A stretch of 64,000 bases of DNA, from NCBI GenBank assembly GCA_037783545.1, contig JBBELK010000518.1:682001-746000 (forward strand). The letters run 5' to 3'. The position numbers and the translations under genes are program-made. The notes under the pieces are model-generated. The model saw only the letters and a program-made list of their open reading frames with translations. It ran no database searches and had not been told where the DNA came from. Within the stretch, counting starts at the first letter, position 1, and each line of letters opens with the position of its first letter. Source of the DNA: Henricia sp. BOLD:AAB3569. Taxonomy: Eukaryota; Echinodermata; Asteroidea; Spinulosida; Echinasteridae. Positions 25,717 to 64,000 of the stretch are shown in pieces.

Positions 25717-26178
25717 TGGGGGCGGGGGGATGGGGGGATGGGGGGATGGGGAGGGGGGGGTGGGGGTGGGGGGATGGGGGGATGGGGGGGGGGATGAGGG
25801 GGATATGGGGGGGGGGGATGGGGGGATGGGGGGGGGATGGGGGATGGGGGGGGGATGGGGGGATGGGGGGGGGGGGGGGAATGACCAAATGTTCTAGTTG
25901 ATTAAAATTGTATGTGGAGAGGCAAAAAATAGACGGGCAGGTCCTTTTTATAAGGCATTATTCAGAAATGTCAGCGATTTTTGGGCAGTGATTGATGGTG
26001 GGGGGATGGGGGGGATGGGGGGGGGGGGGATGGGGGATGGGGGGGGGGGATGGGGGGGGGAATGACCAAATGTTCTAGTTGATTAAAATTGTATGTGGAG
26101 AGGCAAAAAATAGACGGGCAGGTCCTTTTTATATGGCATTATTCAGAAATGTCAGCGATTTTTGGGCAGTGATTGATG
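25717..26178 (+). repeat. G-rich (GGGGGATG) minisatellite, tandemly duplicated
   Basis: A run of GGGGGATGGGGGGATGGGG-type units (25717-25879), then 118 bp of unique sequence (AATGACCAAATGTTCTAGTT onward). A second, shorter G-rich run follows (25998-26060), and the same 118 bp appears again (26061-26178). Many runs of four or more G make G-quadruplex formation plausible. Frames made of G, W, M and D are artefacts. Confidence 0.9.
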
Positions 26179-41011: not shown

Positions 41012-42457
41012 TTGAGGCTGGGTCCGTGTACTAGGAAAACTATTTCTTCCGTCGCCCTTTTCTCGGTCGCTCTTTTCTCCGTCGCCCTTTTCTCCGTCGC
41101 CCGTCGCCCTTTTTTCGGTCGATCTTTTCTCCGTCGCCCTTTTCTCCGTCGCCTTTTCTCCGTCGCCTTTTCTCCGTCGCCCTTTTCTCCGTCGCCCTTT
41201 TCTCCGTCGCCCTTTTCTCCGTCGCCCGTCGCCCTTTTTTCGGTCGCCCTTTTTTCGGTCGCTCTTTTCTCCGTCGCCCTTTTCTCCGTCGCCCTTTTCT
41301 CCGTCGCCCTTTTCTCCGTCGCCCTTTTCTCCGTCGCCCTTTTCACCGTCGCCCGCGTCGACCTTTCCTCCGTCGTGCTTCGCCCTTTCTTCGTCATGCG
41401 GTTCTTAGACCGTATATTGCAATCCGCCCTGTTCCGCTAACAACCGACTTAAATTGTTTCAAATGTGAAATATCTCCTTAAAACATACGGTTAAAAAAGA
41501 AAGAAAATATATTCTGACCCAAAAATTTTTTTCACTGTCAAGCAAACAAAATAATGTCATTTTTGGAAAGCTCGCCAATGTCGTGGAAAGGTTGTACATG
41601 CAACTATAAGTTCCAAAGGACTAGCTACCATTCCAAAGGACTACATTGCACATTGGTAGTCCGGAGGAGACCTGGCCTCCTGAAATACTGCTCTTACATG
41701 TAACTATAAGTCATGGCTTTGCAAAACATGTTTTGCACTATTTGTGATTCACGCATCGCTGTGTATCGTTTCTCCATATGTCGCTCGAATAAGACATAAA
41801 CATAAATAAACCAAAACGCAATATATACCGAGACATGCATTAATGAATCATTTCAATGAGTGCAGACCAATATTACTGGCGACAGAATTATGGGTGTTTA
41901 GATGACTGTCACGACCAGGAGCAACTTTCTGTCTCTTAAAATCGTCTGAGCGGAACGCCAGACACCGTAATTACATCGAAATAATGTTCTCGGCGATCGA
42001 GCAAGCTGGCAGGTAAAGAGACCTACAAAAGGACCTACAACCGTTTTTTTTTTAACTGTCACCCCCACATCTGTTAATGGACTATTCCACGCCTTATTTA
42101 CATATACACAGACGTTAGAAATGATGTTGTACCGTTGGACTAATTGTGATTTTGTAGTTATGCAAGTATTTGTAATTATGGTGTTCATTATGGCTGTTTA
42201 ATTTGTATACTGGTACAAAACAAGTTCTTGTGTTTGTTTATTGTGGGCAGATGGCAATAAATCCAGTTCATTTTTATTCAGCCTTTGCATACAGACCATA
42301 AACGCTATGTTGTACTTCTGACTAGAGTACCTTTATCGAATCTTAATGCAAACTTAAATTCCAAAGGACTAGCTACCATTCCAAAGGACTACATTGCACA
42401 TTGGTAGTCTGGAGGAGACCTGGCCTCCTGAAATACTGCTCTTAACTGAGTGGTCAG
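41012..42457 (+). repeat. Short array unit 6 (1446 bp)
   Basis: Minisatellite 41050-41391, one 15-bp unit shorter than unit 5 and sharing its GGTCGATC variant. Markers TTTCTCC, ATATACC, GGACTATT. Its counterpart is at 57405, also 1446 bp. Confidence 0.9.
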
Positions 42458-43718
42458 TTGAGGCTGGGTCCGTGTACTAGGAAAACTATTTCTTCCGTCG
42501 CTCTTTTCTCCATCGCCCTTTTCTCCATCGCCCTTTTCTCCGTCGCCCGTCGCCCTTTTTTCGGTCGCCCTTTTTTCGGTCGCTCTTTTCTCCGTCGCCC
42601 TTTTCTCCGTCGCCCGCGTCGACCTTTCCTCCGTCGTGCTTCGCCCTTTCTTCGTCATGCGGTTCTTAGACCGTATATTGCAATCCGCCCTGTTCCGCTA
42701 ACAACCGACTTAAATTGTTTCAAATGTGAAATATCTCCTTAAAACATACGGTTAAAAAAGAAAGAAAATATATTCTGACCCAAAATTTTTTTTCACTGTC
42801 AAGCAAACAAAATAATGTCATTTTTGGAAAGCTCGCCAATGTCGTGGAAAGGTTGTACATGCAACTATAAGTTCCAAAGGACTAGCTACCATTCCAAAGG
42901 ACTACATTGCACATTGGTAGTCCGGAGGAGACCTGGCCTCCTGAAATACTGCTCTTACATGTAACTATAAGTCATGGCTTTGCAAAACATGTTTTGCACT
43001 ATTTGTGATTCACGCATCGCTGTGTATCGTTTCTCCATATGTCGCTCGAATAAGACATAAACATAAATAAACCAAAACGCAATATGTACCGAGACATGCA
43101 TTAATGAATCATTTCAAAGAGTGCAGACCAATATTACTGGCGACAGAATTATGGGTGTTTAGATGACTGTCACGACCAGGAGCAACTTTCTGTCTCTTAA
43201 AATCGTCTGAGCGGAACGCCAGACACCGTAATTACATCGAAATAATGTTCTCGGCGATCGAGCAAGCTGGCAGGTAAAGAGACCTACAAAAGGACCTACA
43301 ACCGTTGTTTTTTTAACTGTCACCCCCACATCTGTTAATGGACTATTCCACGCCTTATTTACATATACACAGACGTTAGAAATGATGTTGTACCGTTGGA
43401 CTAATTGTGATTTTGTAGTTATGCAAGTATTTGTAATTATGGTGTTCATTATGGCTGTTTAATTTGTATACTGGTACAAAACAAGTTCTTGTGTTTGTTT
43501 ATTGTGGGCAGATGGCAATAAATCCAGTTCATTTTTATTCAGCCTTTGCATACAGACCATAAACGCTATGTTGTACTTCTGACTAGAGTACCTTTATCGA
43601 ATCTTAATGCAAACTTAAATTCCAAAGGACTAGCTACCATTCCAAAGGACTACATTGCACATTGGTAGTCTGGAGGAGACCTGGCCTCCTGAAATACTGC
43701 TCTTAACTGAGTGGTCAG
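42458..43718 (+). repeat. Short array unit 7 (1261 bp)
   Basis: Short minisatellite (42496-42652) with CTCCATCG variants. The unique change TTTCAAAGAG (43115) for TTTCAATGAG is shared only with 59521. Markers TTTCTCC, ATGTACC, GGACTATT. Confidence 0.9.
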
Positions 43719-45001
43719 TTGAGGCTGGGTCCGTGTACTAGGAAAACTATTTCTTCCGTCGCCCTTTTCTCGGTCGCTCTTTTGCCCGTCGCCCTTTTTT
43801 CGGTCGCCCTTTTTTCGGTCGCCCTTTTCTCCGTCGCATTTTCTTCGTTGCCCTTTTCTCCGTCGACCTTTTCACCGTCGCCCTTTTCACCGTCGCCCGC
43901 GTCGACCTTTCCTCCGTCGTGCTTCGCCCTTTCTTCGTCATGCGGTTCTTAGACCGTATATTGCAATCCGCCCTGTTCCGCTAACAACCGACTTAAATTG
44001 TTTCAAATGTGAAATATCTCCTTAAAACATACGGTTAAAAAAGAAAGAAAATATATTCTGACCCAAAAATTTTTTTCACTGTCAAGCAAACAAAATAATG
44101 TCATTTTTGGAAAGCTCGCCAATGTCGTGGAAAGGTTGTACATGCAACTATAAGTTCCAAAGGACTAGCTACCATTCCAAAGGACTACATTGCACATTGG
44201 TAGTCCGGAGGAGACCTGGCCTCCTGAAATACTGCTCTTACATGTAACTATAAGTCATGGCTTTGCAAAACATGTTTTGCACTATTTGTGATTCACGCAT
44301 CGCTGTGTATCGTTTATCCATATGTCGCTCGAATAAGACATAAACATAAATAAACCAAAACGCAATATATACCGAGACATGCATTAATGAATCATTTCAA
44401 TGAGTGCAGACCAATATTACTGGCGACAGAATTATGGGTGTTTAGATGACTGTCACGACCAGGAGCAACTTTCTGTCTCTTAAAATCGTCTGAGCGGAAC
44501 GCCAGACACCGTAATTACATCGAAATAATGTTCTCGGCGATCGAGCAAGCTGGCAGGTAAAGAGACCTACAAAAGGACCTACAACCGTTTTTTTTTTAAC
44601 TGTCACCCCCACATCTGTTAATGGACTATTCCACGCCTTATTTACATATACACAGACGTTAGAAATGATGTTGTACCGTTGGACTAATTGTGATTTTGTA
44701 GTTATGCAAGTATTTGTAATTATGGTGTTCATTATGGCTGTTTAATTTGTATACTGGTACAAAACAAGTTCTTGTGTTTGTTTATTGTGGGCAGATGGCA
44801 ATAAATCCAGTTCATTTTTATTCAGCCTTTGCATACAGACCATAAACGCTATGTTGTACTTCTGACTAGAGTACCTTTATCGAATCTTAATGCAAACTTA
44901 AATTCCAAAGGACTAGCTACCATTCCAAAGGACTACATTGCACATTGGTAGTCTGGAGGAGACCTGGCCTCCTGAAATACTGCTCTTAACTGAGTGGTCA
45001 G
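43719..45001 (+). repeat. Short array unit 8 (1283 bp)
   Basis: Minisatellite 43757-43935 has TCGCATTTTCTTCGTTGCCC, a variant found again only at 60243. Markers TTTATCC, ATATACC, GGACTATT. Confidence 0.9.
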
Positions 45002-46336
45002 TTGAGGCTGGGTCCGTGTACTAGGAAAACTATTTCTTCCGTCGCCCTTTTCTCGGTCGCTCTTTTGCCCGTCGCCCTTTTCTCCGTCGCCCGTCGCCCT
45101 TTTTTCGGTCGCCCTTTTTTCGGTCGCCCTTTTCTCCGTCGCCCTTTTCTCCGTCGCCCTTTTCTCCGTCGCCCTTTTCTCCGTCGCATTTTCTCCGTTG
45201 CCCTTTTCTCCGTCGACCTTTTCACCGTCGCCCGCGTCGACCTTTCCTCCGTCGTGCTTCGCCCTTTCTTCGTCATGCGGTTCTTAGACCGTATATTGCA
45301 ATCCGCCCTGTTCCGCTAACAACCGACTTAAATTGTTTCAAATGTGAAATATCTCCTTAAAACATACGGTTAAAAAAGAAAGAAAATATATTCTGACCCA
45401 AAAATTTTTTTCACTGTCAAGCAAACAAAATAATGTCATTTTTGGAAAGCTCGCCAATGTCGTGGAAAGGTTGTACATGCAACTATAAGTTCCAAAGGAC
45501 TAGCTACCATTCCAAAGGACTACATTGCACATTGGTAGTCCGGAGGAGACCTGGCCTCCTGAAATACTGCTCTTACATGTAACTATAAGTCATGGCTTTG
45601 CAAAACATGTTTTGCACTATTTGTGATTCACGCATCGCTGTGTATCGTTTATCCATATGTCGCTCGAATAAGACATAAACATAAATAAACCAAAACGCAA
45701 TATATACCGAGACATGCATTAATGAATCATTTCAATGAGTGCAGACCAATATTACTGGCGACAGAATTATGGGTGTTTAGATGACTGTCACGACCAGGAG
45801 CAACTTTCTGTCTCTTAAAATCGTCTGAGCGGAACGCCAGACACCGTAATTACATCGAAATAATGTTCTCGGCGATCGAGCAAGCTGGCAGGTAAAGAGA
45901 CCTACAAAAGGACCTACAACCGTTTTTTTTTTAACTGTCACCCCCACATCTGTTAATGGATTATTCCACGCCTTATTTACATATACACAGACGTTAGAAA
46001 TGATGTTGTACCGTTGGACTAATTGTGATTTTGTAGTTATGCAAGTATTTGTAATTATGGTGTTCATTATGGCTGTTTAATTTGTATACTGGTACAAAAC
46101 AAGTTCTTGTGTTTGTTTATTGTGGGCAGATGGCAATAAATCCAGTTCATTTTTATTCAGCCTTTGCATACAGACCATAAACGCTATGTTGTACTTCTGA
46201 CTAGAGTACCTTTATCGAATCTTAATGCAAACTTAAATTCCAAAGGACTAGCTACCATTCCAAAGGACTACATTGCACATTGGTAGTCTGGAGGAGACCT
46301 GGCCTCCTGAAATACTGCTCTTAACTGAGTGGTCAG
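45002..46336 (+). repeat. Short array unit 9 (1335 bp)
   Basis: Minisatellite 45040-45270, about 230 bp, with TCGCATTTTCTCCGTTGCCC. The counterpart at 61395 is 15 bp shorter. Confidence 0.9.
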
Positions 46337-46942
46337 TTGAGGCTGGGTCCGTGTACTAGGAAAACTATTTCTTCCGTCGCCCTTTTCTCGGTCGCTCTTT
46401 TCTCCGTCGCCCTTTTCTCCGTCGCCCGTCGCCCTTTTTTCGGTCGCTCTTTTCTCCGTCGCCCTTTTCTCCGTCGCCCTTTTCACCGTCGCCCGCGTCG
46501 ACCTTTTCTCCGTCGTGCTTCGCCCGTTCTTCGTCATGCGGTTCTTAGACCGTATATTGCAATCCGCCCTGTTCCGCTAACAACCGACTTAAATTGTTTC
46601 AAATGTGAAATATGTGGATTGGGTTTGCAGTCCCTACTTGACCGCGTGGGTTTTCCCCTGGGGCATTTCTCTGGGGGTTTTCCTCCCACTTCTAAAACTG
46701 CAACTCCTTCTTCGTCATCTCAAGTTGATAATATAGTATAGTTAAAGCCAAAAAAAACCGTATAGTTGATGGCATAAAGGGCCTTAGTTGCCGAAGATGC
46801 CATAAAATATACAACAACAACAACAACACAATGCAAACTTAAATTCCAAAGGACTAGCTACCATTCCAAAGGACTACATTGCACATTGGTAGTCTGGAGG
46901 AGACCTGGCCTCCTGAAATACTGCTCTTAACTGAGTGGTCAG
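46337..46942 (+). repeat. Truncated array unit 10 with SINE fragment (606 bp)
   Basis: Minisatellite 46375-46531. After AAATTGTTTCAAATGTGAAA the unit body is replaced by a SINE 3' segment (46611-46828), and the array resumes at ATGCAAACTTAAATTCCAAA. The 134-codon frame reading from minisatellite into SINE is a chimera, not a gene. Confidence 0.9.
46611..46828 (+). mobile_element. 5'-truncated SINE fragment, copy A
   Basis: TATGTGGATTGGGTTTGCAG to ACAACAACAACAACA, matching 11594-11805 without the tRNA head. Its 5' edge falls at TATGTGG following GAAA. The right side has ACAATGCAAAC of the array. The structure is duplicated at 62989. Confidence 0.9.
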
Positions 46943-47447
46943 TTGAGGGTGGGTCCGTGTACTAGGAAAACTATTTCTTCCGTCGCCCTTTTCTCGGTCG
47001 CCCTTTTGTCCGTCGCCCGTCGCCCTTTTTTCGGTCGCTCTTTTCTCCGTCGCCCTTTTCTCCGTCGCCCTTTTCTCCGTCGCCCTTTTCACCGTCGCCC
47101 GCGTCGACCTTTTCTCCGTCGTGCTTCGCCCTTTCTTCGTCATGCGGTTCTTAGACCGTATATTGCAATCCGCCCTGTTCCGCTAACAACCGACTTAAAT
47201 TGTTTCAAATGTGAAATATCTCCTTAAAACATACGGTTAAAAAAGAAAGAAAATATATTCTGACCAAAAAATCAATGAGTCTGATATATTATGGAGTTTA
47301 TTTTATTGGTCAGTAACGTGCGTATGAACACCTTGTGACATTTTCTCGGAGCAATTTTATGCAAAGTAGGACGCGTGTGCACAATGGGAGACTTTTGAAA
47401 TGTGTGGTTGCAGCAAAGTGCGCATGCTCAATGTGACGTCACCCCCA

Positions 47448-52042: not shown

Positions 52043-52183
52043 TTGAGGCTGGGTCCGTGTACTAGGAAAACTATTTCTTCCGTCGCCCTTTTCTCGGTCG
52101 CTCTTTTGCCCGTCGCCCTTTTCTCCGTCGCCCGTCGCCCTTTTTTCGGTCGCCCTTTTTTCGGTCGCCCTTTTCTCCGTCGC
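52043..52183 (+). repeat. Left half of a split minisatellite unit
   Basis: Anchor at 52043, minisatellite from 52081, interrupted at 52183 after CGTCGC/CCC by the CCAGTT element. The right half resumes at 55681. Confidence 0.9.
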
Positions 52184-53615
52184 CCCAGGTGAAAATTCCA
52201 GTTGAAACCAGTTAAACTTTCAACTGGTTTCAACTGGGATTAATTGGTACCTGTTGAACGCAACTGGAATCAACTGGGGGCCAACTGGAGCCAGTTAGAA
52301 CAACTTTAGAAATCCTGTTAAAACTGGTAATTTTAGCGAGACCAACTGGGACCAGTTATAACCAGTTGAAGAAACCAGTTACCAACTGGTAACATTTTGC
52401 GAGATCAACAGAAACCAGTTGATGAAACCAGTTATCAACTGGTAATTTTCCGACAAGTTGAAATCGATCAAAACCAGTTACATCAACTGTCTGATTTCGC
52501 ATGAGTGTACGCGTTTCAGCACGGGACTATTAAACAAGTTGCACAATTTGCGCTTTTTGGTCACCTTTGTCAGGACGGCCCGGGCCAGTTGGGGCCAGTT
52601 GAAACCAGTTTCCACCCGGGCAATTCTGTGAATGGGCCAGCTGAAACCAGCCGATACAACCAGTTACCAACTGATCACTTTTTTTCCGGCACAGAGCCAG
52701 TTTATAATAAACCCAGTTGCATCTGTGACAGCACAGGGCCAGTGAAACCGGTTGCAGACACCAGTTACCAACTGGTCACTGTGCCAGTTGGAACCATGCA
52801 GTTTTAGAAACAAGTTACCAATTCACTATTGACAGCACCGGGCCAATTGAAACCAGTTGCAGAAACCAGTTATCAACTGGTCCCTTAAATTTTGTCAGCA
52901 CAGGGCCAGTTGAAACCAGTTGCAGGAACTAGTTACCAACTGGTTTCTATATTGAAAGTTCGGGGCCGAAACCAGTTGCAGTAACTAGTTACCAACTGGT
53001 CCTTATTGACAGTATGGGGCCGAAACCAGTTGCAGAAACCAGTTACTAACTGGTTACAGGGCCAGTTGGAACCTAGTTGCAGAAACCAGTTACCAGAGAC
53101 CAGTTGATAACTGGTTTCTAATTCTGCAACCTGTTCAAAAACAGTTTGAAACCAGTTCTACCCAGTTGGAAAACAGTTTAAAACCAGTTCAGGACCAGTT
53201 CTACCCAGTTGGAAAAGAGTTTAAAACCAGTTCAGAACCAGTTGTTCCCAGTTGGAAAACAGTTTAAAACCAGTTCAACCCAGTTGGAAAACAGTTTAAA
53301 ACCAGTTCAAAACCAGTTCAACCCAGTTGGAAAACAGTTTAAAACCAGTTCATGACCAGTTCTACCCACAGTTGGAAAACAGTTTAAAACCAGTTCTATA
53401 CCCAGTTGGAAAACGGTTTAAAACCAGTTCAGGACCAGTTCTACCCAGTTGGAAAACAGTTTAAAACCACTTAAGGACCAGTTCAATCCAGTTGGAAAAC
53501 AGTTTAAAACCAGTTAAGGACCAGTTCTACCCAGTAGGAAAACAGTTTAAAACCAGTTCAGGACCAGTTCTACCCAGTAGGAAAACAGTTTAAAACCAGT
53601 TCAGGACCAGTTCTA

Positions 53616-53696
53616 CCCAGTAGGAAAACAGTTTAAAACCAGTTCAGGACCAGTTGAACTGGTCCTGAACTGGTTTTAAACTGTTTTCCAACTGGG
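53616..53696. repeat. Near-perfect palindrome at an orientation switch
   Basis: 33-bp perfect arms (53623-53655 and 53657-53689) around a single G at 53656, extending to about 40 bp with one mismatch. The minisatellite flips from CCAGTT to AACTGG orientation exactly here and flips back at about 54009. Confidence 0.85.
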
Positions 53697-54741
53697 TTGA
53701 ACTGGTCCTGCACTGGTTTTAAACTGTTTTCCTACTGGGTATACACTGGTCCTTAACTGGTTTTAAACTGTTTTCCAACTGGGTATAGAACTGGTTTTAA
53801 ACTGTTTTCCAACTGTGGGTAGAACTGGTCATGAACTGGTTTTAAACTGTTTTCCAACTGGGTTGAACTGGTTTTAAACCGTTTTCCAAATGGATTGAAA
53901 TGGTCCTTAACTGGTTTTAAACTGTTTTCCAACTGGGTTGAACTGGTTTTAAACCGTTTTCCAACTGGGTACAACTGCATGGTCCTGAACTGGTTTTAAA
54001 CTGTTTTCCAGAACCAGTTCTACCCAGTTGGAAAACAGTCTAAAACCAGTTAAGGACCAGTTCAATCCAGTTGGAAAACAGTTTAAAACCAGTTCAGGAC
54101 AAGTTCTACCCAGTTGGAAAACACAGTTTAAAACCAGTTAAGGACCATTTCAATTCAGTTGGAAAACGGTTTAAAACCAGTTAAGGACCAGTTCAATCCA
54201 GTTGGAAAACAGTTTAAAACCAGTTAAGGACCAGTTCTACCTAGTAGGAAAACAGTTTAAATCCAGTGCAGGACCAGTTCAACACAGTTTAAAACCAGTT
54301 CAGGACCAGTTGTACCCAGTTGGAAAACGGTTTAAAACCAGTTCAACCCAGTTGTAAAACAGTTTAAAACCACTTCTTGACCAGTTCTACCCAGTTGGAA
54401 AACAGTTTAAAACCAGTTCTACCCAGTTGGAAAACAGTTTAAAACCAGTTCTACCCAGTTGGAAAACAGTCTAAAACCAGTTAAGGACCAGTTCAATCCA
54501 GTTGGAAAACAGTTTAAAACCAGTTCAGGACCAGTTGTTCCCAGTTGGAAAACGGTTTAAAAGCAGTTCAACCCAGTTGGAAAACAGTTTAAAACCAGTT
54601 CATGACCAGTTCTACCCACAGTTGGAAAACAGTTTAAAACCAGTTCTATACCCAGTTGGAAAACAGTTTAAAACCAGTTCTATACCCAGTTGGAAAACAG
54701 TTTAAAACCAGTTCAGGACCAGTTCTGTCCAGTTAGAAAAC

Positions 54742-55195
54742 AGTTTTAAAAATGCAATGTATTGTGGGATTCATGTAACTGAACAGATTTACCGTGTACA
54801 AAAAGTAATTTGCTTCAGTTTTGGCAGTTTTTTTGATTTTTTTGTAAATGGGTTGTTACTTGATAATAGGCAAATTGGCAATTGTCGGGAATGAACAAAC
54901 TCAAAGTGGCGAGAGATTAAAATTAAATTTGGTATTCGATTAGTAGGTGTGTGCCAACCATGGGTTACAGGGTGCAGGTTTTTGTGGAGCATAAATAGAA
55001 GTCGCGCATAAAGATAATGTATGAGTATAGTGTATAAGTATAGTGTATGAGTAGTGTATGAGTAGTGTATGAGTAGTGTATGCATGAATAATGTATAAGT
55101 AATGTATGAATATGTATAAGTAATGTATACGACCTAAATAAGACGTCTTTTTTCCAATTGTTTTTTTTTCTCCAATTGGTTCCAATTGAGGAGTG
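54742..55195. other. Non-repetitive core of the CCAGTT element, with a GTATGAGTA microsatellite
   Basis: The only stretch inside the element free of CCAGTT. It starts AAAAATGCAATGTATTGTGG and contains a degenerate GTGTATGAGTA/GTGTATAAGTA tandem (about 55017-55130). Frames of up to 98 codons on the minus strand read the tandem (THTLLIHYSYT-like) and are not credible proteins. Confidence 0.7.
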
Positions 55196-55680
55196 CCAAA
55201 ACTCAGGACCAGTTGTACCCAGTTGGAAAACAGTTTAAAACCAGTTCAGGACCAGTTCAACCCAGTTGGAAAACAGTTTAAAACCAGTTCAGGACCAGTA
55301 CACCAATTGAAAACCTGTTGGAAAACAGTTTAAGCCCAGTTCACAACCTATTGACAACCAGTTGTGAACCAGTATAAAACCAATTCATTCCAATTCAACC
55401 AATTGTGCCTATTAAAAACCAGTTAATTCCAGTTCGAAACCAGTTCAAAACCAGCTACACTAACTTGCACCAGTTGGAAACCAGTTGGAAACCAGTTCAG
55501 AAACAGTTCAATACCAGTTAGACCTATTATAACCAGTTCATTCCAGTTAAAAACCTATTCAAAACCAGTTCATCCTATTGATACCAGCACAGAACCAGTT
55601 GAAAACCAGTAACCAATTCCCAGTTCAACTGGACCAGTTCAGACCAGTTCAACTGGTTTCAACTGGAATTTTCACCTGGG

Positions 55681-56113
55681 GCCCTTTTCTCCGTCGCCTT
55701 TTCTCCGTTGCCCTTTTCTCCGTCGCCCTTTTCACCGTCGCCCTTTTCACCGTCGCCCGCGTCGACCTTTCCTCCGTCGTGCTTCGCCCTTTCTTTGTCA
55801 TGCGGTTCTTAGACCGTATATTGCAATCCGCCCTGTTCCGCTAACAACCGACTTAAATTGTTTCAAATGTGAAATATCTCCTTAAAACATACGGTTAAAA
55901 AAGAAAGAAAATATATTCTGACCCAAAATTTTTTTTCACTGTCAAGCAAACAAAATAATGTCATTTTTGGAAAGCTCGCCAATGTCGTGGAAAGGTTGTA
56001 CATGCAACTATAAGTTCCAAAGGACTAGCTACCATTCCAAAGGACTACATTGCACATTGGTAGTCTGGAGGAGACCTGGCCTCCTGAAATACTGCTCTTA
56101 ACTGAGTGGTCAG
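55681..56113 (+). repeat. Right half of the split unit, lacking its body
   Basis: The minisatellite resumes (55681-55795), then CAATCCGCCCTGTTCCGCTA and TACGGTTAAAAAAGAAAG, the first CCAAAGGACTAGCTACC repeat, and directly TCTGGAGGAGACC...ACTGAGTGGTCAG, the sequence that normally follows the second repeat. About 730 bp of body is therefore missing, as expected from recombination between the two direct repeats. Confidence 0.85.
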
Positions 56114-57404: not shown

Positions 57405-58850
57405 TTGAGGCTGGGTCCGTGTACTAGGAAAACTATTTCTTCCGTCGCCCTTTTCTCGGTCGCTCTTTTCTCCGTCGCCCTTTTCTCCGTCGCCCGTCGC
57501 CCTTTTTTCGGTCGCTCTTTTCTCCGTCGCCCTTTTCTCCGTCGCCTTTTCTCCGTCGCCTTTTCTCCGTCGCCCTTTTCTCCGTCGCCCTTTTCTCCGT
57601 CGCCCTTTTCTCCGTCGCCCGTCGCCCTTTTTTCGGTCGCCCTTTTTTCGGTCGCTCTTTTCTCCGTCGCCCTTTTCTCCGTCGCCCTTTTCTCCGTCGC
57701 CCTTTTCTCCGTCGCCCTTTTCTCCGTCGCCCTTTTCACCGTCGCCCGCGTCGACCTTTCCTCCGTCGTGCTTCGCCCTTTCTTCGTCATGCGGTTCTTA
57801 GACCGTATATTGCAATCCGCCCTGTTCCGCTAACAACCGACTTAAATTGTTTCAAATGTGAAATATCTCCTTAAAACATACGGTTAAAAAAGAAAGAAAA
57901 TATATTCTGACCCAAAATTTTTTTTCACTGTCAAGCAAACAAAATAATGTCATTTTTGGAAAGCTCGCCAATGTCGTGGAAAGGTTGTACATGCAACTAT
58001 AAGTTCCAAAGGACTAGCTACCATTCCAAAGGACTACATTGCACATTGGTAGTCCGGAGGAGACCTGGCCTCCTGAAATACTGCTCTTACATGTAACTAT
58101 AAGTCATGGCTTTGCAAAACATGTTTTGCACTATTTGTGATTCACGCATCGCTGTGTATCGTTTCTCCATATGTCGCTCGAATAAGACATAAACATAAAT
58201 AAACCAAAACGCAATATATACCGAGACATGCATTAATGAATCATTTCAATGAGTGCAGACCAATATTACTGGCGACAGAATTATGGGTGTTTAGATGACT
58301 GTCACGACCAGGAGCAACTTTCTGTCTCTTAAAATCGTCTGAGCGGAACGCCAGACACCGTAATTACATCGAAATAATGTTCTCGGCGATCGAGCAAGCT
58401 GGCAGGTAAAGAGACCTACAAAAGGACCTACAACCGTTTTTTTTTTAACTGTCACCCCCACATCTGTTAATGGACTATTCCACGCCTTATTTACATATAC
58501 ACAGACGTTAGAAATGATGTTGTACCGTTGGACTAATTGTGATTTTGTAGTTATGCAAGTATTTGTAATTATGGTGTTCATTATGGCTGTTTAATTTGTA
58601 TACTGGTACAAAACAAGTTCTTGTGTTTGTTTATTGTGGGCAGATGGCAATAAATCCAGTTCATTTTTATTCAGCCTTTGCATACAGACCATAAACGCTA
58701 TGTTGTACTTCTGACTAGAGTACCTTTATCGAATCTTAATGCAAACTTAAATTCCAAAGGACTAGCTACCATTCCAAAGGACTACATTGCACATTGGTAG
58801 TCTGGAGGAGACCTGGCCTCCTGAAATACTGCTCTTAACTGAGTGGTCAG
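57405..58850 (+). repeat. Short array unit 14 (1446 bp), counterpart of unit 6
   Basis: Same length as 41012-42457. It differs in GGTCGCTC for GGTCGATC in the minisatellite and in the A/T run at 57916. Confidence 0.9.
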
Positions 58851-60126
58851 TTGAGGCTGGGTCCGTGTACTAGGAAAACTATTTCTTCCGTCGCTCTTTT
58901 CTCCATCGCCCTTTTCTCCATCGCCCTTTTCTCCATCGCCCTTTTCTCCGTCGCCCGTCGCCCTTTTTTCGGTCGCCCTTTTTTCGGTCGCTCTTTTCTC
59001 CGTCGCCCTTTTCTCCGTCGCCCGCGTCGACCTTTCCTCCGTCGTGCTTCGCCCTTTCTTCGTCATGCGGTTCTTAGACCGTATATTGCAATCCGCCCTG
59101 TTCCGCTAACAACCGACTTAAATTGTTTCAAATGTGAAATATCTCCTTAAAACATACGGTTAAAAAAGAAAGAAAATATATTCTGACCCAAAATTTTTTT
59201 TCACTGTCAAGCAAACAAAATAATGTCATTTTTGGAAAGCTCGCCAATGTCGTGGAAAGGTTGTACATGCAACTATAAGTTCCAAAGGACTAGCTACCAT
59301 TCCAAAGGACTACATTGCACATTGGTAGTCCGGAGGAGACCTGGCCTCCTGAAATACTGCTCTTACATGTAACTATAAGTCATGGCTTTGCAAAACATGT
59401 TTTGCACTATTTGTGATTCACGCATCGCTGTGTATCGTTTCTCCATATGTCGCTCGAATAAGACATAAACATAAATAAACCAAAACGCAATATGTACCGA
59501 GACATGCATTAATGAATCATTTCAAAGAGTGCAGACCAATATTACTGGCGACAGAATTATGGGTGTTTAGATGACTGTCACGACCAGGAGCAACTTTCTG
59601 TCTCTTAAAATCGTCTGAGCGGAACGCCAGACACCGTAATTACATCGAAATAATGTTCTCGGCGATCGAGCAAGCTGGCAGGTAAAGAGACCTACAAAAG
59701 GACCTACAACCGTTGTTTTTTTAACTGTCACCCCCACATCTGTTAATGGACTATTCCACGCCTTATTTACATATACACAGACGTTAGAAATGATGTTGTA
59801 CCGTTGGACTAATTGTGATTTTGTAGTTATGCAAGTATTTGTAATTATGGTGTTCATTATGGCTGTTTAATTTGTATACTGGTACAAAACAAGTTCTTGT
59901 GTTTGTTTATTGTGGGCAGATGGCAATAAATCCAGTTCATTTTTATTCAGCCTTTGCATACAGACCATAAACGCTATGTTGTACTTCTGACTAGAGTACC
60001 TTTATCGAATCTTAATGCAAACTTAAATTCCAAAGGACTAGCTACCATTCCAAAGGACTACATTGCACATTGGTAGTCTGGAGGAGACCTGGCCTCCTGA
60101 AATACTGCTCTTAACTGAGTGGTCAG
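58851..60126 (+). repeat. Short array unit 15 (1276 bp), counterpart of unit 7
   Basis: One extra CTCCATCGCCCTTTT unit relative to 42458-43718. It shares TTTCAAAGAG. Confidence 0.9.
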
Positions 60127-61394
60127 TTGAGGCTGGGTCCGTGTACTAGGAAAACTATTTCTTCCGTCGCCCTTTTCTCGGTCGCTCTTTTGCCCGTCGC
60201 CCTTTTTTCGGTCGCCCTTTTTTCGGTCGCCCTTTTCTCCGTCGCATTTTCTTCGTTGCCCTTTTCTCCGTCGACCTTTTCACCGTCGCCCGCGTCGACC
60301 TTTCCTCCGTCGTGCTTCGCCCTTTCTTCGTCATGCGGTTCTTAGACCGTATATTGCAATCCGCCCTGTTCCGCTAACAACCGACTTAAATTGTTTCAAA
60401 TGTGAAATATCTCCTTAAAACATACGGTTAAAAAAGAAAGAAAATATATTCTGACCCAAAAATTTTTTTCACTGTCAAGCAAACAAAATAATGTCATTTT
60501 TGGAAAGCTCGCCAATGTCGTGGAAAGGTTGTACATGCAACTATAAGTTCCAAAGGACTAGCTACCATTCCAAAGGACTACATTGCACATTGGTAGTCCG
60601 GAGGAGACCTGGCCTCCTGAAATACTGCTCTTACATGTAACTATAAGTCATGGCTTTGCAAAACATGTTTTGCACTATTTGTGATTCACGCATCGCTGTG
60701 TATCGTTTATCCATATGTCGCTCGAATAAGACATAAACATAAATAAACCAAAACGCAATATATACCGAGACATGCATTAATGAATCATTTCAATGAGTGC
60801 AGACCAATATTACTGGCGACAGAATTATGGGTGTTTAGATGACTGTCACGACCAGGAGCAACTTTCTGTCTCTTAAAATCGTCTGAGCGGAACGCCAGAC
60901 ACCGTAATTACATCGAAATAATGTTCTCGGCGATCGAGCAAGCTGGCAGGTAAAGAGACCTACAAAAGGACCTACAACCGTTTTTTTTTTAACTGTCACC
61001 CCCACATCTGTTAATGGACTATTCCACGCCTTATTTACATATACACAGACGTTAGAAATGATGTTGTACCGTTGGACTAATTGTGATTTTGTAGTTATGC
61101 AAGTATTTGTAATTATGGTGTTCATTATGGCTGTTTAATTTGTATACTGGTACAAAACAAGTTCTTGTGTTTGTTTATTGTGGGCAGATGGCAATAAATC
61201 CAGTTCATTTTTATTCAGCCTTTGCATACAGACCATGAACGCTATGTTGTACTTCTGACTAGAGTACCTTTATCGAATCTTAATGCAAACTTAAATTCCA
61301 AAGGACTAGCTACCATTCCAAAGGACTACATTGCACATTGGTAGTCTGGAGGAGACCTGGCCTCCTGAAATACTGCTCTTAACTGAGTGGTCAG
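60127..61394 (+). repeat. Short array unit 16 (1268 bp), counterpart of unit 8
   Basis: One CACCGTCGCCCTTTT unit fewer than 43719-45001. It has the private change CCATGAACGC near 61233. Confidence 0.9.
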
Positions 61395-62714
61395 TTGAGG
61401 CTGGGTCCGTGTACTAGGAAAACTATTTCTTCCGTCGCCCTTTTCTCGGTCGCTCTTTTGCCCGTCGCCCTTTTCTCCGTCGCCCGTCGCCCTTTTTTCG
61501 GTCGCCCTTTTTTCGGTCGCCCTTTTCTCCGTCGCCCTTTTCTCCGTCGCCCTTTTCTCCGTCGCATTTTCTCCGTTGCCCTTTTCTCCGTCGACCTTTT
61601 CACCGTCGCCCGCGTCGACCTTTCCTCCGTCGTGCTTCGCCCTTTCTTCGTCATGCGGTTCTTAGACCGTATATTGCAATCCGCCCTGTTCCGCTAACAA
61701 CCGACTTAAATTGTTTCAAATGTGAAATATCTCCTTAAAACATACGGTTAAAAAAGAAAGAAAATATATTCTGACCCAAAATTTTTTTTCACTGTCAAGC
61801 AAACAAAATAATGTCATTTTTGGAAAGCTCGCCAATGTCGTGGAAAGGTTGTACATGCAACTATAAGTTCCAAAGGACTAGCTACCATTCCAAAGGACTA
61901 CATTGCACATTGGTAGTCCGGAGGAGACCTGGCCTCCTGAAATACTGCTCTTACATGTAACTATAAGTCATGGCTTTGCAAAACATGTTTTGCACTATTT
62001 GTGATTCACGCATCGCTGTGTATCGTTTATCCATATGTCGCTCGAATAAGACATAAACATAAATAAACCAAAACGCAATATATACCGAGACATGCATTAA
62101 TGAATCATTTCAATGAGTGCAGACCAATATTACTGGCGACAGAATTATGGGTGTTTAGATGACTGTCACGACCAGGAGCAACTTTCTGTCTCTTAAAATC
62201 GTCTGAGCGGAACGCCAGACACCGTAATTACATCGAAATAATGTTCTCGGCGATCGAGCAAGCTGGCAGGTAAAGAGACCTACAAAAGGACCTACAACCG
62301 TTTTTTTTTTAACTGTCACCCCCACATCTGTTAATGGATTATTCCACGCCTTATTTACATATACACAGACGTTAGAAATGATGTTGTACCGTTGGACTAA
62401 TTGTGATTTTGTAGTTATGCAAGTATTTGTAATTATGGTGTTCATTATGGCTGTTTAATTTGTATACTGGTACAAAACAAGTTCTTGTGTTTGTTTATTG
62501 TGGGCAGATGGCAATAAATCCAGTTCATTTTTATTCAGCCTTTGCATACAGACCATAAACGCTATGTTGTACTTCTGACTAGAGTACCTTTATCGAATCT
62601 TAATGCAAACTTAAATTCCAAAGGACTAGCTACCATTCCAAAGGACTACATTGCACATTGGTAGTCTGGAGGAGACCTGGCCTCCTGAAATACTGCTCTT
62701 AACTGAGTGGTCAG
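61395..62714 (+). repeat. Short array unit 17 (1320 bp), counterpart of unit 9
   Basis: One 15-bp unit fewer than 45002-46336. Otherwise essentially identical, including TCGCATTTTCTCCGTTGCCC. Confidence 0.9.
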
Positions 62715-63320
62715 TTGAGGCTGGGTCCGTGTACTAGGAAAACTATTTCTTCCGTCGCCCTTTTCTCGGTCGCTCTTTTCTCCGTCGCCCTTTTCTCCGT
62801 CGCCCGTCGCCCTTTTTTCGGTCGCTCTTTTCTCCGTCGCCCTTTTCTCCGTCGCCCTTTTCACCGTCGCCCGCGTCGACCTTTTCTCCGTCGTGCTTCG
62901 CCCGTTCTTCGTCATGCGGTTCTTAGACCGTATATTGCAATCCGCCCTGTTCCGCTAACAACCGACTTAAATTGTTTCAAATGTGAAATATGTGGATTGG
63001 GTTTGCAGTCCCTACTTGACCGCGTGGGTTTTCCCCTGGGGCATTTCTCTGGGGGTTTTCCTCCCACTTCTAAAACTGCAACTCCTTCTTCGTCATCTCA
63101 AGTTGATAATATAGTATAGTTAAAGCCAAAAAAAACCGTATAGTTGATGGCATAAAGGGCCTTAGTTGCCGAAGATGCCATAAAATATACAACAACAACA
63201 ACAACACAATGCAAACTTAAATTCCAAAGGACTAGCTACCATTCCAAAGGACTACATTGCACATTGGTAGTCTGGAGGAGACCTGGCCTCCTGAAATACT
63301 GCTCTTAACTGAGTGGTCAG
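62715..63320 (+). repeat. Truncated array unit 18 with SINE fragment, counterpart of unit 10
   Basis: 606 bp, the same as 46337-46942, with the same SINE junctions. Confidence 0.9.
62989..63208 (+). mobile_element. 5'-truncated SINE fragment, copy B
   Basis: Identical in structure and breakpoints to 46611-46828, inherited through the higher-order duplication rather than inserted independently. Confidence 0.9.
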
Positions 63321-64000
63321 TTGAGGGTGGGTCCGTGTACTAGGAAAACTATTTCTTCCGTCGCCCTTTTCTCGGTCGCCCTTTTGTCCGTCGCCCGTCG
63401 CCCTTTTTTCGGTCGCTCTTTTCTCCGTCGCCCTTTTCTCCGTCGCCCTTTTCTCCGTCGCCCTTTTCACCGTCGCCCGCGTCGACCTTTTCTCCGTCGT
63501 GCTTCGCCCTTTCTTCGTCATGCGGTTCTTAGACCGTATATTGCAATCCGCCCTGTTCCGCTAACAACCGACTTAAATTGTTTCAAATGTGAAATATCTC
63601 CTTAAAACATACGGTTAAAAAAGAAAGAAAATATATTCTGACCAAAAAATCAATGAGTCTGATATATTATGGAGTTTATTTTATTGGTCAGTAACGTGCG
63701 TATGAACACCTTGTGACATTTTCTCGGAGCAATTTTATGCAAAGTAGGACGCGTGTGCACAATGGGAGACTTTTGAAATGTGTGGTTGCAGCAAAGTGCG
63801 CATGCTCAATGTGACGTCACCCCCACGCGAACGTTTGCAAACGTTGGCAACGTTGGCGAACTTTTTGAGTGGAAAGAATTGTGCGCCACCAACGTCCGCA
63901 TACGTTGGCCAACGAACTTTTGGATTGTTCGCGATGTTCGCGAGTGATTTCAAAATGGCGTGCGCGACATGAAAGATGACAGACGATGGTTTGTAGTTTG
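63321..64000 (+). repeat. Long-form array unit, cut by the window end
   Basis: Counterpart of 46943 onward with the GAGGGTGGGTCCG anchor. Minisatellite 63359-63515. It includes the left-truncated CAGGG MITE from 63826, cut at 64000. Confidence 0.9.

Follow-up and report, generated by a model that had tools for sequence, protein, structure and literature searches.

A non-coding CACTA-type element in the genome of Henricia sp. with a body built largely of CCAGTT arrays

Animal CACTA transposons of the TRC group (SmTRC1 of Schistosoma mansoni, and elements of Aedes and Tribolium) have termini that begin with CCC; the cited excerpt reports 2-bp direct repeats for 7 of 14 SmTRC1 copies and gives the Aedes end as CCCAGTCAAC (PMC1636069). 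In CACTA elements generally, subterminal repeats of 10-20 bp are described in both orientations (PMC8978399, in excerpt), and in maize En/Spm these repeats act in cis and are recognized by the protein TNPA (PMC2613891, in excerpt). Among neighboring groups, the excerpted account lists a TWA duplication for PIF/Harbinger, AT for ISL2EU, none for Spy and 2-4 bp for the CMC group (PMC4482050). Internal repeats are also described, again in excerpts, for Galileo, in which internal tandem repeats hold extra transposase-binding sites (PMC3688188), and for Tetris, a non-autonomous element whose arrays grow and whose repeats are thought to derive from part of its end (PMC4079207).

The element described here lies in a 64,000-nt stretch of Henricia sp. 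DNA (the window, to which all plain coordinates refer). It shares CCC termini and 2-bp duplications with the TRC elements, as far as these are covered by the cited excerpt (PMC1636069), and its candidate partner encodes Transposase_21; it differs from them in lacking a recognizable gene and in having a body that is nearly all CCAGTT array. As in En/Spm and plant CACTA elements, short subterminal repeats are present in direct and inverted orientation and agree with the 10-20-bp range, whereas the plant elements of the cited excerpts have CACTA ends, 3-bp duplications and subterminal regions of several hundred bases rather than repeats throughout the element (PMC2613891, PMC8978399). Galileo is set apart by its membership of the P superfamily, its THAP domain and its long inverted repeats (PMC3688188, in excerpt), and Tetris by its foldback form, 220-bp repeats and 8-10-bp duplications (PMC4079207, in excerpt). 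Taken as a whole, our analysis indicates, with a probability of about 0.86, that the window element belongs to a family of dispersed elements with inverted ends CCCAGG...CCTGGG, codes for no recognizable protein, and probably depends for movement in trans on a CACTA (Transposase_21) element that resides in the same genome and matches its end at 28 of 30 positions. In the literature consulted (titles and abstracts of the best matches listed, with few subscription journals), we found no animal CACTA element that consists nearly entirely of its subterminal motif, nor any named protein that recognizes subterminal repeats in such animal elements.

Structure and insertion site of the element

The element occupies 52184..55680 (3,497 bp) and is bounded by terminal inverted repeats at 52184..52213 (plus strand, beginning CCCAGG) and 55651..55680 (minus strand). 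These are identical at 30 of 30 positions, or over 32 bp if the flanking palindromic GC is included; this GC constitutes the left (52182..52183) and right (55681..55682) copies of a 2-bp target duplication. The end sequence of the window element is CCCAGGTGAAAATTCCAGTT. A terminal hairpin at 52198..52237 has perfect 16-bp arms, CCAGTTGAAACCAGTT and AACTGGTTTCAACTGG, separated by a loop of 8 bp.

We counted 120 CCAGTT and 34 AACTGG hexamers in the element, a total of 154, where 300 dinucleotide shuffles gave 5.8 on average and never more than 14; the rest of the window (60.5 kb) contains 21 and 7, respectively. In the left arm (52214..53127) both motifs occur in mixed orientation between diverged spacers. 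The central array consists of ~43-bp units, with four CAGTT motifs each in the first plus-strand block (53128..53655), followed by an inverted block (53656..54010, minus strand) and a second plus-strand block (54012..54750); a perfect palindrome with 33-bp arms and a 1-bp loop (53623..53689) lies at the junction of the first two. To the right are a motif-free spacer of 458 bp (54746..55203; no hexamers at 54750-55200), a short plus-strand block of ~43-bp units (55203..55305) and the right arm (55306..55650), a degenerate motif array in which a site phase of ~10.5 bp is kept. The only stop-to-stop ORF of at least 110 aa in the element (54789-55133) falls in the motif-free spacer and has no Pfam match, and no Transposase_21 match was found within the element. 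The preliminary description had reported perfect 30-bp ends, motifs throughout, 43-bp units in alternating orientation and no protein, all of which agree with these data. The terminal repeat carries the motif twice (CCAGTTGAAACCAGTT), and a near copy of this sequence (ACAGTTTAAAACCAGTT) occurs within the 43-bp unit, which suggests that the array grew out of the element's end.

The insertion lies in a 15-bp minisatellite (52080..52181 on the left, 55683..55767 on the right) that is itself part of a ~1.3-kb tandem unit. Twenty-four such units were anchored in the window; one contains the element, and no second copy was found within the 64 kb. Flanks of the sibling units are 96-99.7% alike over their aligning parts, some aligning only partially, and on this basis the insertion would be more recent than the last homogenization of the host array. 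The sibling minisatellites had been proposed as models of the empty site; from the window site alone the duplication could be either 2 or 17 bp. A 17-bp duplication, which several sibling minisatellites fit in this periodic host, was rejected because the other copies show exactly 2 bp.

The tandem array of ~1.3-kb units with their internal 15-bp minisatellite extends over 22187-64000, and, from the spacing of the anchors, 41026-46957 seems to recur at 57419-63335. Two further repeats were noted in the window. Positions 1-2000 consist of tandem ~78-84-bp units, each with a tRNA-like stretch (TAGCTCAGCTGGTAGAGC) that we take to resemble a tRNA A-box region; ARAGORN and Rfam returned no gene for this array. 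A G-rich minisatellite at 25717-26061 (GGGGGGAT) could form quadruplexes.

Dispersed copies and target duplication

The genome from which the window derives (740.7 Mb, 2,104 contigs) was searched with the left 100 bp of the element. The preliminary description had staked its proposal on the presence of other copies, and at least 40 places were recovered, the window's included (the best 40 of 140 candidates; the search gave 79 rows, the extra ones being weaker inverted matches at identical places). The right-end search yielded 43 rows for the best 40 of 150 candidates, of which 40 were used and three adjoining second matches were dropped. A listed right end could be paired with 27 of the 40 left ends, at 1.9-8.4 kb in 26 cases and at 29.8 kb in one. 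Twenty-eight of the 39 other left-end places listed were read; the left 30 bp are those of the window in 26 of these copies and carry one and two mismatches in the remaining two, all 28 having been retrieved with a query that contains this end.

Both ends were recognized in 20 elements (window included). In 16 of these the 2 bp on either side are the same, with GC, CA, TA, AT, CG, TG and AA all represented; counting L030 and L034 once, since they share flanks, gives 15 of 19 independent elements. The target duplication, which the preliminary description had wished to see defined from many copies, is therefore 2 bp and variable in sequence. No matching duplication was seen in L019, L022 and L036, in which the right end is damaged, or in L032, which has one right-end mismatch and a poly-G flank. 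The terminal motif of CACTA elements is CMCWR, which CCCAG fits. For an element with CCC ends and a variable 2-bp duplication the animal CACTA group is the best fit, and a class can be named where the earlier reader had recognized none. The view that this is a mobile element inserted in a minisatellite is likewise upheld by the defined ends and by the copies elsewhere with their duplications.

Flanks are shared across different contigs by L023 and L024 and by L030 and L034, and these pairs are therefore segmental duplications or unmerged haplotypes. In the copy with ends 29.8 kb apart (L020, C153:656217-686030), the left arm and array run for ~7.1 kb and are followed by non-array sequence from TTAA/CCCTTT and by array again near the right end; the interval may contain a nested insertion about 20 kb long. 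A single long array across it was rejected, as seven of eight 25-bp probes lacked the motif. An open 745-aa ORF adjoins the left end of a subfamily B copy (L029 1360-3594, minus strand); it encodes the RNase H and integrase of a retroelement and was dismissed as a partner.

The copies differ in array length. Among the 18 elements in which left arm and spacer were mapped, the central array measures 737 to 4,106 bp (the figure for L025 contains a foreign stretch), while identity across mapped copies is 92-100% in the left arm and 95-100% in the 458-bp spacer. The latter was matched by BLAST in 18 of 29 elements, though only partially in three of the 18. Over its first 900 bp the element aligns at 92-100% to main-subfamily copies, and a 397-bp right arm is 87-100% conserved in the 15 copies where it was mapped as such; in the window and L010 the mapping gave an internal repeat in its place. 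Not every copy has the inverted block; by site counts, seven closed copies are without it (L011, L013, L014, L015, L019, L022, L027). Closed main-subfamily copies hold 99-281 hexamers each, and the short copies of subfamily B (L030, L032, L034, L036) just 21-41.

Transposase_21 families in the same genome

A genome-wide search for Transposase_21 (CACTA) gave 23 matches at 19 places, four genes being matched in two pieces, and five large ORFs scored above the Pfam cut-off, among them one of 792 aa. Four families were probed near an end, and CCAGTT was found there in one; L065 and L066 were probed by a single 550-bp stretch each, in which no CCAGTT occurred, arrays elsewhere being possible. The 792-aa family is represented by two loci (L044, L049) that are 99.85% alike and end at an identical CCTGGG with different flanks, the transposase ORF lying upstream of this end in both. 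Its first 30 bases inward match the window element's end at 28 of 30 positions and differ at two. The last 717 bp, at the 3′ end, contain 24 CCAGTT and 13 AACTGG (37 hexamers), and no hexamer occurs in the 3,411 bp that surround the transposase. By eye, the array unit is ~150 bp long, unlike the 43-bp unit of the window. The preliminary description had called for an autonomous partner, and on the shared end and motif the 792-aa family, known from its right end, is the best candidate; a search for its left end upstream with just five 30-bp probes found no motif. Below an unnamed top hit, the matches of the 792-aa protein that came first were from echinoderms (Anneissia, Acanthaster, Diadema, Apostichopus and Lytechinus), and a PHROGs search with it returned nothing. 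Exact scans for the element end in viral contigs and prokaryote genome contigs found nothing, as expected for an animal genome, nor did an exact scan of viral contigs for 24 bases of the 43-bp unit.

At the protein level the elements themselves did not match any of the five Transposase_21 ORFs, nor did the non-motif sequence inside L021, L025, L030 and L036 match the transposase loci at the nucleotide level. Some of these loci are matched by 32-138-bp stretches of L023, L024 and L031, which have the look of dispersed repeats lying past the remnant of the element.

A second Transposase_21 family, with a 758-aa protein (L043, L045-L048, L050, L061; six loci 98-99% alike), terminates on the right in ...GTAAGGG, as three differently flanked copies show. 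The 1.13 kb before this end (L061 1400-2530 in one copy) contain 54 CATG, or 47.8 per kb versus 5.9 elsewhere in the stretches read, at intervals of mainly 21, 11, 10 and 20 bp (42 of 53). This family has the same plan as the CCAGTT family, with a GGG right end and a motif array whose sites recur at multiples of ~10.5 bp, and differs in its motif, CATG instead of CCAGTT, and in encoding its transposase. Past CCC, the ends of the two CACTA families showed no significant similarity, in an alignment poorly framed by a one-base slip. Matches of the 758-aa protein, again below an unnamed top hit, were from Acanthaster, Lytechinus and Diadema, then from fish, acorn worm and others. As a lead, the matches of both proteins point to an echinoderm host, with the reservation that transposons can pass from one lineage to another. 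In the right flanks of L015 and L062, the two CACTA families are inserted beside nearly identical repeated sequence.

Site spacing, motif conservation and the role of the array

Successive plus-strand YAGTT sites of the window element are 10-11 bp apart in 98 of 158 intervals, and AACTG sites in 21 of 45. Measured against random placements, a control that makes no correction for tandem duplication, the degenerate right arm is phased (0 of 3000 placements equally good), as are the minus-strand sites of the left arm (1 of 3000); the plus-strand sites of the left arm show no phase (1563 of 3000). In comparisons with diverged subfamily B, hexamers appear better conserved than spacers. In the left arm, 8 of 90 hexamer positions are changed relative to the window, versus 70 of 148 others in L029 (p 1.5e-10), 74 of 150 in L030 and 71 of 148 in L036; in the right arm the hexamer and other changes are 8 of 89 and 58 of 196 for L030 (p 7e-5), 6 of 64 and 43 of 180 for L032, and 8 of 90 and 52 of 181 for L036. 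This is support rather than proof of constraint because the repeats align motif on motif, which inflates the contrast. The left arms of the close copies L011, L020, L027 and L033 show no significant motif effect. For the truncated L031 and L035, in which homology stops inside the stretch compared, the left arm gives p 0.1 and 0.2 with the window's hexamers as reference and p 0.004 and 5e-6 with their own. Pooled over the 43-bp arrays, 28 of 971 motif positions versus 58 of 741 others are changed (p 5e-6), and position by position motif conservation is not significant (p 0.11).

The body of the element is an overgrown subterminal array and, judging from its motifs, likely a dense cluster of putative protein-binding sites. 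By analogy with plant CACTA elements, a transposase would recognize the shared end, and CCAGTT would be bound by a companion DNA-binding protein, like TNPA in maize En/Spm, or by the transposase itself. With about one site per DNA turn, the sites would lie on one face of the helix, where neighboring proteins could line up and draw the two ends together; the turn-by-turn spacing of two motifs in two CACTA families suggests such side-by-side binding. The central array would grow and shrink by unequal exchange or slippage, with local inversion, and the arms and ends would be kept by the need for recognition.

Several other origins were considered. YAACKG is a Myb site and CANNTG an E-box, and the preliminary description had noted that CAACTG matches both and had speculatively linked the element to Harbinger-type transposons, whose Myb-like accessory protein would bind it. 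YAACKG matches are indeed dense in the element (28.6 per kb versus 2.1 in the remaining window), but just 100 of 202 CAGTT sites fit YAACKG, which leaves the other half unexplained by Myb. The MADF/Myb-like relic that had been placed at 13 kb was not borne out either, as Pfam found no MADF or Myb domain in the four ORFs at 12.8-13.8 kb. The duplication is 2 bp and variable rather than the 3-bp TWA of the excerpted PIF/Harbinger account (PMC4482050), and the element that shares ends and motif encodes Transposase_21; the duplication and the CACTA partner refute membership of the Harbinger superfamily, the likelihood of which we consider exceedingly small. Nor does the element resemble Spy (PHIS superfamily), which leaves no duplication and inserts at AAATTT. 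A foldback element of the Drosophila FB, Galileo or Tetris type, with repeats that serve as extra transposase sites, would account for end-like internal repeats in both orientations and for the perfect palindrome with its 33-bp arms, and the repeats of Galileo bind its transposase domain according to the cited excerpt (PMC3688188). This origin is very unlikely for the window element: in place of long inverted tandem-repeat arms it has perfect inverted ends of just 30 bp, its array runs mostly in one orientation, seven closed copies have no central inverted block, and its duplications are 2 bp versus the 8-10 bp excerpted for Tetris (PMC4079207). Duplication length refutes foldback membership; the use of extra binding sites, as a mechanism, does not differ in kind from the one favored here. 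A satellite that captured or grew similar ends, with no transposon involved, might be suggested by the host site, itself a minisatellite. With many different flanks and variable 2-bp duplications in 16 of 20 elements, that reading is refuted and has next to no probability.

For a CACTA element with these features, the question is what the long array does. It may be mutational ballast, that is, a deletion derivative expanded by slippage in which binding is limited to the terminal few hundred bases, a reading to which we give somewhat less than even odds. The wide range of array length beside arms and spacer that stay at 87-100%, the lack of position-wise constraint within the array and the short subfamily B copies are consistent with it, whereas the retention of at least 99 hexamers by every closed main-subfamily copy, arm motifs that outlast spacers relative to subfamily B and the shared 10-11-bp spacing of two motifs in two CACTA families argue against it. 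Tentatively, the elements may instead be amplifiers of binding sites that dropped their genes and multiplied the site of an accessory protein about once per helical turn. If so, a main-subfamily copy with roughly 100 to 370 sites would soak up the protein or nucleate a filament of it, and non-coding copies could outcompete or switch off the autonomous element; long, phased arrays that differ in length between copies would be accounted for.

Whichever role the array has, a transposon that is nearly all minisatellite can retain conserved termini with duplicated target bases, and repeat annotation could mistake it for a satellite. The family offers, in one genome, a candidate transposase gene, a short motif and same-ended copies with differing array length, and its 758-aa cousin, with another motif at the same spacing, allows a comparison of how protein and motif change. 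Whether array length sets binding and mobility, and whether a DNA-binding protein and its motif change together, are thereby made testable. A further dispersed array of a short motif, CAACTCGAC/GTCGAGTTG, was observed in both orientations at L060 1229-1757 and in the flank of L063; it is perhaps one more transposon motif.
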